Under the pieces are notes generated by a model. It saw nothing but the letters and a program-made list of their open reading frames with translations. It was not told the origin of the DNA and did not search any database. From positions 2,501 to 66,500 of the forward strand of contig NZ_ALAB01000035.1 of NCBI RefSeq assembly GCF_000280055.1: a stretch of DNA of 64,000 nucleotides. Direction: 5' to 3'. This document shows, piece by piece, positions 5,352 to 7,497 of the stretch. Numbering within the stretch: position 1 is the stretch's first letter; every line of letters begins with the position of its first letter. Source of the DNA: Alishewanella aestuarii B11. GTDB lineage: Bacteria; Pseudomonadota; Gammaproteobacteria; Enterobacterales; Alteromonadaceae. The translations under genes were made by a program, and so were the position numbers.

Positions 5352-6431
5352 TTATTCCGGGATCTCAGCGTTCATATGGTACATCGGGCTGAGATCCTGC
5401 ACCGCCTCGATAAAGACCCTGGCATGCTCAGGATCGACTTCAGGCGTAATACCATGTCCCAAATTAAAGATATGACCTGAACCCTGGCCAAAGCCATCAA
5501 GGATAGTTTGTACTTCCTGACGGATCCGTTCCGGTGTGCCCAGCAGAATAGACGGGTCCATATTGCCCTGTAACGCCACCTGCTGCCCTACCCGGGCGCG
5601 GGCGCTGGCGATATCGGTCGTCCAGTCTAAACCTAAAGCATCACAGCCAGTCGCAGCCATCATTTCCAGCCACTGACCGCCATTTTTGGTAAACAAGGTT
5701 ACCGGTACTTTGCGACCATCAGCTTCGCGGGTCAGGCCGTTCAGAATTTGCTGCATATAACTGAGCGAATATTCTTTATAATCGCGTGGCGTCAGTACCC
5801 CACCCCAGGTATCGAAGATCATCACTGCCTGAGCGCCGGCTGCAATTTGGGCATTCAGATACAGGGTCACGCTTTGCGCCAGCTTATCCAGCAGCATATG
5901 TAGCACTTCCGGCTCGCTATACATCATCTTTTTGATGATGCTAAAGGTCTTACTACCACTACCTTCCACCATATAGGTGGCAAGCGTCCAGGGACTGCCG
6001 GAAAAACCAATCAACGGAACGCTACCCTGCAATTCACGGCGGATAGTGCGAACCGCATCCATCACATAACGCAGCTCCTGCTCCGGATCCGGAATGGGTA
6101 AATGCACCACATCCAGAAAATCGCGGATCGGCTTACTGAATCGTGGGCCCTCGCCGACACCGAAACTGAGCCCCAACCCCATCGCATCAGGAATGGTCAG
6201 AATATCGCTAAACAGGATAGCGGCATCCAATGGATAGCGGCGTAATGGCTGCAATGTCACCTCGCAGGCGAGCTCCGGGTTTTTGCATAGCGACATAAAA
6301 TCACCGGCTTGCGCGCGGGTAGCACGATACTCAGGTAAATAACGCCCGGCCTGGCGCATCATCCAAATTGGGGTTCGATCTACCGGTTGCCGTAGCAAGG
6401 CACGCAAATAACGATCATTTTTTAGCTGCAT
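5352..6431 (-). CDS. hemE: Uroporphyrinogen decarboxylase HemE
   Basis: Converts uroporphyrinogen III to coproporphyrinogen III in heme synthesis by removing four acetate carboxyls. 359 residues (E. coli 354). The N-terminal signature is [20 protein letters not shown], whose arginines bind substrate. [12 protein letters not shown] carries the catalytic aspartate, and the second signature [15 protein letters not shown] and the C-terminal [15 protein letters not shown] are present. Its grouping with nudC and rsd is a gammaproteobacterial arrangement. Confidence 0.97.
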
Positions 6432-6528: not shown

Positions 6529-6570
6529 AAACTGAAAAAATATTCAGCTTAGGTTCATTTTTTTCAGTTT
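6529..6570. repeat. AT-rich inverted repeat upstream of the small RNA promoter
   Basis: AAACTGAAAAAA (6529-6540) is complementary to TTTTTTCAGTTT (6559-6570) across an 18-base gap. A nested CTGAA/TTCAG pair lies inside. It sits 5 bases upstream of a promoter-like TTGTAT. It could be an UP-like or regulator site, or a weak terminator for transcription coming from nudC. Confidence 0.4.
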
Positions 6571-6575
6571 GCCGC

Positions 6576-6604
6576 TTGTATCAGCAAAACGCTTCTGTTA
6601 TAAA
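6576..6604 (+). promoter_or_regulatory. Probable promoter of an intergenic small RNA
   Basis: TTGTAT (6576-6581), exactly 17 bases, TATAAA (6599-6604) on the plus strand, opposite in direction to both flanking genes. An AT-rich tract lies just upstream. Nothing protein-coding follows before a terminator at 6670-6698. Confidence 0.5.
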
Positions 6605-6610
6605 AGTACT

Positions 6611-6698
6611 GCGCTAGTGAAGTTCTAACAACAAAGAAGCTCGGTATACGAGACCTTAAGCTCCAATTTAAAGCCACCTTGAGTGGCTTTTTTATTTT
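6611..6698 (+). ncRNA. Candidate small RNA between hemE and nudC
   Basis: About 85 nucleotides between a predicted start near 6611 and the terminator T-run. It contains a small internal hairpin, CTCG-GTATA-CGAG, and a single-stranded A/C-rich segment. The 3' end is a terminator stem with a U-run, typical of Hfq-binding RNAs. I do not recognise it as Spot 42, RyhB, 6S or another named family. Ends are inferred from promoter and terminator only. Confidence 0.4.
6670..6698 (+). terminator. Intrinsic terminator, plus strand
   Basis: Stem AAAGCCAC/GTGGCTTT with a 5-base loop, then TTTATTTT. The T-run is on the plus strand, so it does not serve nudC (minus strand), which ends here. It implies a plus-strand transcript from the intergenic region. 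Confidence 0.75.
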
Positions 6699-7497
6699 AT
6701 GCGTTCTGCTGCTGTGTTGCCTGCGCCAGCGCAATTAACTGCCCGGATAAGGTCTGTAGCCCCGGTGTCTCTGGCAAGTCATGCAGCGGACACCAGTAAG
6801 CTTCGGCGATTTCCTCAGGCTGGCACTGGATCTCACCACCGGCATAGTCAGCGACAAAACCTGTCATCAATGAATGCGGAAAAGGCCAGGGCTGACTGCC
6901 AACATAACGCAAATTGGTAATATCGATCCCCACTTCCTCTTTTACTTCGCGCACCGCTGCCTGCTCCAGAGTCTCTGCCGATTCAACGAAACCCGCCAGG
7001 ACCGAGAAAAATCCCGCTTTGTGCCGGGTGGAGCGCGCCAGCAAAATTTTATCGGCTTTTACTACCGCGACCAGAACACAGGGTGCAATACGAGGGTAAC
7101 AGCGATGCCCACACTTGTGGCAAAGAGTCGCCAGCTCCCAGTTAACCAAACGCATCGCGCTGCCACACTGACCGCAAAAGCGGTGTGTTTGCAAAAATAA
7201 CGCAACCTGGGTCGCCCGGGCAGCCAATTGAAACAGCGCCTCGCCCTGCTCTAATAAAGCACGGGCGGAATGCCAATCCGCCTCATTCGCCGGTCGGTCG
7301 TCGTACACCACCAGATAACATGGCTGCTGCTGGTATTCACCCAGTTTACAGATCATCGCATCCGCCAGCTGCAGCGGCAGGGCAGCAAGTTCAGTAAAGG
7401 GTACTGTGCCATCTGCGGTCAGAAACAACCGGCCCTGACTCACAATAAACCAGTATGCCAACTGCCCGGATGATACTTTTACACTATGTTCAATCAT
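6697..7497 (-). CDS. nudC: NAD-capped RNA hydrolase / NADH pyrophosphatase NudC
   Basis: Cleaves NADH and removes NAD caps from RNA 5' ends. 266 residues (E. coli 257). The N-terminal domain is variable. Four zinc-ligand cysteines follow (C108, C111, C126, C129), then the Nudix box at about 169-191 with the REVKEEVG core. The family-specific SQPWPFPHSLM motif starts at residue 201, which distinguishes NudC from other Nudix enzymes. Divergent from rsd. The neighbouring small RNA candidate ends within its stop region. Confidence 0.96.
   Translation of the reverse strand: MIEHSVKVSSGQLAYWFIVSQGRLFLTADGTVPFTELAALPLQLADAMICKLGEYQQQPCYLVVYDDRPANEADWHSARALLEQGEALFQLAARATQVALFLQTHRFCGQCGSAMRLVNWELATLCHKCGHRCYPRIAPCVLVAVVKADKILLARSTRHKAGFFSVLAGFVESAETLEQAAVREVKEEVGIDITNLRYVGSQPWPFPHSLMTGFVADYAGGEIQCQPEEIAEAYWCPLHDLPETPGLQTLSGQLIALAQATQQQNA

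Follow-up and report, generated by a model that had tools for sequence, protein, structure and literature searches.

A predicted small RNA gene conserved beside hemE in Alishewanella and related bacteria

The gap between hemE and nudC of Alishewanella aestuarii B11 raises the question of whether it holds a small RNA gene of its own and, if so, how such an RNA would act. The locus was examined within a window of 64,000 nucleotides (the whole stretch of DNA that was analysed). Its DNA is near to that of A. jeotgali, with 97.6% identity across 6.6 kb. An original prediction had placed a stand-alone RNA at this site, between hemE and nudC; both genes are found there, on the minus strand, and the features of the locus are collected in Table 1.

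Table 1. Coordinates of the predicted RNA gene, its parts and its neighbours in the window.
Feature	Position	Strand	Basis
-35 element TTGTAT	6576..6581	+	Read from the sequence; mean column identity 0.84, 3 of 6 columns invariant (28 aligned intergenic regions)
Extended -10, TG-T-TATAAA	6596..6604	+	Read from the sequence; TATAAA at 6599-6604
Small RNA, predicted transcript of about 84-86 nt	6611..6696	+	Invariant block from 6611, seven bases past the -10
5' block GCGCUAGUGAAG	6611..6622	+	Candidate pairing region; 11 of 12 columns invariant (28 sequences), unpaired in the consensus structure
A-rich linker, 3' end AAGAAG	6623..6639	+	Possible Hfq distal-face (ARN) site
Covarying hairpin CUCG/CGAG (6640-6652), then ACC	6640..6655	+	Changes on both sides in 3 of 4 pairs
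Intrinsic terminator, U-rich tail	6670..6696	+	Mean identity 0.93; terminator scan; changes on both sides in 4 of 7 stem pairs across families
hemE	5352..6431	-	ORF; divergent neighbour (context)
nudC	6697..7497	-	ORF; convergent neighbour (context)

Promoter, predicted transcript and conservation within the genus

The two promoter hexamers, TTGTAT and TATAAA, are read directly from the sequence with the exact 17-base spacing that had been claimed for them, and the -10 is of the extended type. The likely first base of the RNA is G6611, because the invariant block begins there and at a normal distance from the -10; this start gives about 84-86 nucleotides with a U-rich end, in agreement with the RNA of about 85 nucleotides in the original prediction. 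The internal CTCG/CGAG hairpin is present where it was described. The terminator stem is formed by AAAGCCAC/GTGGCTTT (6670-6690); a T-run comes after it on the plus strand, whereas both neighbouring genes are on the other strand, as had been stated. The AT-rich inverted repeat described immediately upstream is present as well (at about 6529-6569) but is not conserved: its right arm is altered in a relative that is 99% identical (L002), and also in L003 and L004, and the repeat was rejected as a feature.

No open reading frame had been seen behind the promoter, and the only one listed across the RNA is a mechanical antisense frame of 56 amino acids (6564-6734). A short peptide could in principle be encoded in the sense direction, alone or beside a role of the RNA, and a GTG-AAG start is indeed common in the 5' block within the genus of the window. 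However, the closed reading frames inside the RNA span 0-19 amino acids, are inconsistent between sequences and are missing from 22 of 64; the frame is shifted by insertions or deletions of 1-2 bases, and one relative (L006) lacks the GTG. We therefore reject a coding function as barely conceivable.

Taken by themselves, the promoter, terminator and fold signals are weak. TTGTAT agrees with the -35 consensus at 3 of 6 positions, and for this reason the promoter is absent from the promoter-scan list. The terminator scan returned four terminators, the present one among them, against 3.1 expected in shuffled sequences; the numbers of promoters and terminators from a simple scan are about those found in shuffles. 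The fold energy of the window RNA is ordinary relative to shuffles (z of -0.77), and in some relatives it lies below them (z of -5.11 in L062 and -2.34 in L085). The inner hairpin of the window RNA appears in the centroid and is absent from the minimum-energy fold; folds of single sequences do not in every case contain it. The locus rises above chance because of its conservation, not because of these signals alone.

A nucleotide search at an E-value of 0.01 covered 60 genomes, the window's own included, and matched 39 of them: the own genome, 30 of 30 relatives of the same genus and 8 of 29 others. Among the eight matches outside the genus, one (G035) comprised the RNA core, six the surroundings of the terminator only, and one an upstream stretch. 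The original prediction had looked to close relatives for conservation, and the promoter, hairpin and terminator are all readable at the same site in each of the 30 same-genus relatives.

Segment identities were calculated over 28 aligned intergenic regions, among them that of the window, with gaps scored as differences; L027 and L030 were kept outside for their long inserts, and L031 and L032 because the sequence taken from them was limited to short stretches. Mean column identity was 0.52 beside hemE and 0.59 before the promoter; it was 0.84 in the -35 element, 0.64 in the spacer and 0.94 in the -10 (0.935, with 5 of 6 columns invariant; 0.869 for the preceding TGn). Within the RNA, the first 12 bases reached 0.99 and the terminator 0.93, with the hairpin unit at 0.88 and the linker at 0.79. 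The peaks of identity thus coincide with the promoter elements and the RNA segments, and the flanking DNA is lower.

Long inserts separate hemE from the promoter of an intact RNA gene in L027, and in L030 long inserts lie on either side of an intact gene. Many Rheinheimera and Arsukibacterium genomes (L010-L028, e.g. L016, L020 and L025) carry a short intergenic repeat, GCTGCCATCCATGGCGC...AAAAATCTTTCCGGAAGATTTTTTATTT, past the terminator and before nudC; it is present in two tandem copies in L016 and resembles a small palindromic interspersed element.

Covarying structure and distribution of the RNA

Covariation was assessed on 64 loci (62 distinct sequences) from several families, drawn from the better-scoring matches of the covariance models described below; same-genus loci L002, L012, L013, L015-L017, L021, L024 and L027 and second fetches of the same genomes were left out. 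Over the whole structure, standard pairs occupy 99.0% of the cells in the 64 matches. The covariation score was 0.464 against 0.180 for shuffled alignments, with 0 of 500 shuffles reaching the observed score; the alignment had been fitted to the model's own structure and is biased towards it. From the genus alignment, the source of the model, RNAalifold derived a consensus with the identical two helices. In the inner hairpin, both sides have changed in three of the four pairs and 99.6% of the cells are paired (62 distinct sequences), so that conservation of structure, which had been suggested as a check, is borne out across genera. In other families the promoter, the core and the terminator stem are retained and the sequence of the stem differs. 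The candidate small RNA is thus supported by a conserved promoter, hairpin and terminator together with covariation, the transcript itself being predicted.

The 5' block is often self-complementary, as judged by eye: TTCGCTAGCGAA in L236 (2719-2817), CGCTAGCG in loci L049-L061 of family f7 (called Kangiellaceae here) and, with G-U pairs, CGCUAGUG at 6611-6619 of the window. Such a block could also serve as an operator in the DNA around the start site, or as a kissing or dimer site of the RNA.

Two covariance models, R1 and R2, were used for wider searches; the window copy, which was among the sequences from which both were built, scores 85.4 and 80.4 bits, respectively. Within the family, 171 of 295 genomes had a match, spread over 41 of 52 genera; the figures were 47 of 394 genomes for the order and 2 of 369 for the class, both of the latter from the window's own family and one of them its own genome; the three samples overlap, and the search filters lose weak matches. 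On inspection, the 47 order matches comprised 36 beside hemE, 9 elsewhere and 2 that are apparently false. The nine away from hemE (eight in Kangiellaceae, one in family f13) have promoter, core and terminator. The apparently false ones, in G087 and G040, lie at the ends of reading frames and lack the core; since R2 still gave them E-values of 0.0016 and 0.0004, further weak matches in the family may be false too. G040 also has a true copy beside hemE, which R2 recovered and R1 did not.

The genome of the window has a single copy, even at an E-value of 10. Two copies, separated by about 0.5 kb, occur in L293 (G484:C8; 1501-1591 and 2006-2095); both have a promoter and a terminator and lie downstream of a divergent hemE. 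Another genome of the family (G573) has two model matches.

A search for the core pattern in named genomes returned 103 stretches, 59 of which also carry hemE, rsd or nudC. One further stretch is from Thalassotalea with fklB only, two are contigs of metagenome-assembled genomes taken as Kangiellaceae loci from the earlier searches, and the other 41 belong to unrelated lineages. By name, the core with hemE alongside was found in Rheinheimera, Alishewanella, Arsukibacterium, Alkalimonas, Thalassotalea, Colwellia, Catenovulum, Bowmanella, Alteromonas and Lacimicrobium. A fumarate reductase from family f6 matches residues 24-593 of 593 of the flavocytochrome c in PDB entry 1d4c, which we take to be from Shewanella, so that this family is very probably Shewanellaceae.

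Gene neighbourhood

In 58 of the 64 aligned loci hemE lies upstream of the RNA and divergent from it, at a distance of 131-306 bases in 50 of these; the six loci without hemE in their flanks are all from Kangiellaceae. Among the genes tested, the first one downstream is an opposite-strand nudC in 35 of 64 loci, that of the window being one of them, and a co-directional rsd in 6 of 64; 17 of the 58 hemE-linked loci have neither. In one Kangiellaceae metagenome-assembled genome (L140) the RNA is found between tex and dsbB, as read by eye from translations, and rsd follows after about 2.9 kb. The hemE loci of another 30 genomes, of which 25 had no model match, were also examined. Many have nudC abutting hemE, with no space for the RNA, and others hold recognisable or decayed copies at the same site; when nine of these loci were re-scored with the filters off, E-values were below 0.001 in four and about 0.09 in two.

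These arrangements bear on two explanations in which the RNA would serve its neighbours. It might be the leader or attenuator of a downstream gene rather than a free RNA, as the six loci with rsd first downstream in the same direction would allow; the opposite-strand nudC in 35 loci leaves nothing to lead, and we regard a leader as very improbable. Alternatively, the RNA could act in cis on hemE or on read-through from nudC into hemE, as an antisense RNA or by promoter interference. The divergent hemE of most loci fits such action, as does the window, where nudC and hemE are both on the strand opposite to the RNA. However, the RNA and hemE do not overlap, and by eye a -10-like TAAAAT or TAGAAT recurs directly in front of hemE, which makes a separate start for hemE within the gap probable. 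Moreover, the downstream gene varies among loci, and 9 of the 47 order matches have the motif with no hemE within about 1.5 kb. Action in cis was therefore judged unlikely.

Comparison with known RNAs and proposed mode of action

That the RNA would match no known small RNA family had been part of the original prediction, and at the gathering scores of Rfam 15 no family was matched by the window or by 20 diverse relatives; at gathering and loose thresholds no family came near its gathering score in the window. The sequence data thus describe a conserved small RNA gene that is absent from Rfam 15, apparently a new family of a known kind. MicA, RybB and ChiX are Hfq-dependent trans-acting small RNAs of enterobacteria, and the present RNA resembles them in being a stand-alone intergenic gene of about 85 nucleotides with an unpaired conserved 5' end, an internal hairpin, a U-tailed terminator and an ARN-like A-rich stretch. 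It differs in sequence, with the window at 16.4 bits against a gathering score of 41 for MicA and at 16.9 against 55 for the RyhB family. E. coli sroH, which we take to lie in a thiC-rsd-nudC-hemE neighbourhood, has comparable hemE/nudC/rsd surroundings, but here too the sequence differs (RF00372; 16.6 bits against 80).

Small RNAs with their own start sites have been described in a related bacterium, Alteromonas macleodii Te101 (PMC5864184). That report gives 127 chromosomal small RNAs, among which there may be a relative of the present one, and describes the CsrB/C-like Aln1a-c, three copies within one intergenic region of 404 bp with frequent A(N)GGA motifs. Unlike Aln1a-c, the present RNA occurs mostly as one copy and has no such repeats. 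A sponge of the CsrB/C-RsmX/Y/Z type was rejected: a single A(N)GGA is present in 8 of 64 RNAs, none has a second, and GGA is absent from 34 of 64. Shewanella oneidensis has a RyhB that is tied to heme proteins, and hemE (SO_0435) appears in an RNA-seq results table of a study on it (PMC5826389); it is a different RNA, the window being below the RyhB gathering score. In the literature searched, with supplementary small RNA tables outside the scope, we found no description of the present RNA or its expression.

With the anatomy, the conservation, the covariation and the absence of a consistent reading frame established, the reading that we favour, at a probability of roughly 60%, is that of a gene with its own sigma-70 promoter whose product is an Hfq-assisted, trans-acting base-pairing regulator. 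It has the look of one because of the ARN-rich linker, the U-tail, the conserved unpaired 5' end and the presence of hfq in the genome (Pfam PF17209, E-value 1.9e-29). Over the full length of the RNA, the longest ARN run has a mean of 3.34 in 64 sequences, against 2.48 in shuffled ones, and is 3 in the window RNA. Transcription would start near G6611 and end at the gene's own terminator after about 85 nucleotides. The unpaired 5' end, GCGCUAGYRAA, would pair with mRNAs, perhaps together with the AGAAGC and GACC on either side of the hairpin; Hfq would be bound by the A-rich linker and the U-tail, and the hairpin would hold the fold.

Possible targets were sought with the complement of the 5' block, allowing at most one mismatch, in 13 genomes, with the reversed pattern as control. 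There were 9-29 sites per genome against 6-35 for the control, the counts being above the control in four genomes (G018, G020, G023 and G025) and below it in nine. Twenty sites among the matches listed were inspected in seven genomes: 11 of the 12 in the window genome, the twelfth being the RNA gene itself, together with 9 in six relatives. Nineteen of the 20 are inside stop-to-stop frames 142 codons or longer, and 18 of the 19 are antisense to the frame; by eye no 5'-UTR target common to the genomes was seen among the 20.

Pairing with hemA was tested because of a report on S. oneidensis in which hfq mutants suffer a heme shortage at the 5-aminolevulinic acid step and the authors name an unidentified small RNA as one possible cause (PMC4214671). 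Pairing with the hemA leader was at chance on average (mean z of -0.02, range -2.27 to 1.39) in 19 of 24 hemA loci, five being left out; two genomes were at -2.27 and -1.81, and others were positive. The hemE leader was likewise at chance on average (mean z of 0.10, n = 17, after two loci without a recognised start were dropped). These tests cover the 5' block, hemA and hemE only, and the duplex calculation ignores accessibility. The hemA and hemE results give no support for this RNA being behind the heme control suggested for S. oneidensis, and are compatible with an indirect link.

The negative target searches would also fit an RNA that acts through a protein, with the AAGAAGC-hairpin-GACC unit as a protein site and the protein sequestered or guided without pairing to mRNA. 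This unit is retained at the same site in three loci in which the 5' block is lost (L217, L222 and L223), and the sequence of the hairpin is variable while the flanking bases are nearly constant. However, each RNA has one copy of the unit, as opposed to the many sites of CsrB-type sponges, with A(N)GGA never occurring twice, and the 5' block, for which a protein site has no need, is the most conserved segment within the genus. We consider action through a protein possible but doubtful. More speculative, and rather unlikely, is that the AAGAAGC-hairpin-GACC unit is the hallmark of a new type of RNA-protein regulator in Alteromonadaceae and their neighbours, perhaps the Hfq-linked RNA suggested to lie behind heme control in S. 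oneidensis (PMC4214671).

With a regulatory RNA beside hemE in dozens of genera, among them very probably the laboratory genus Shewanella, these marine and metal-respiring bacteria would share a core regulator that is missing from the standard RNA catalogue. Such an RNA would also provide a defined candidate for the small RNAs behind the Hfq phenotypes in Shewanella.
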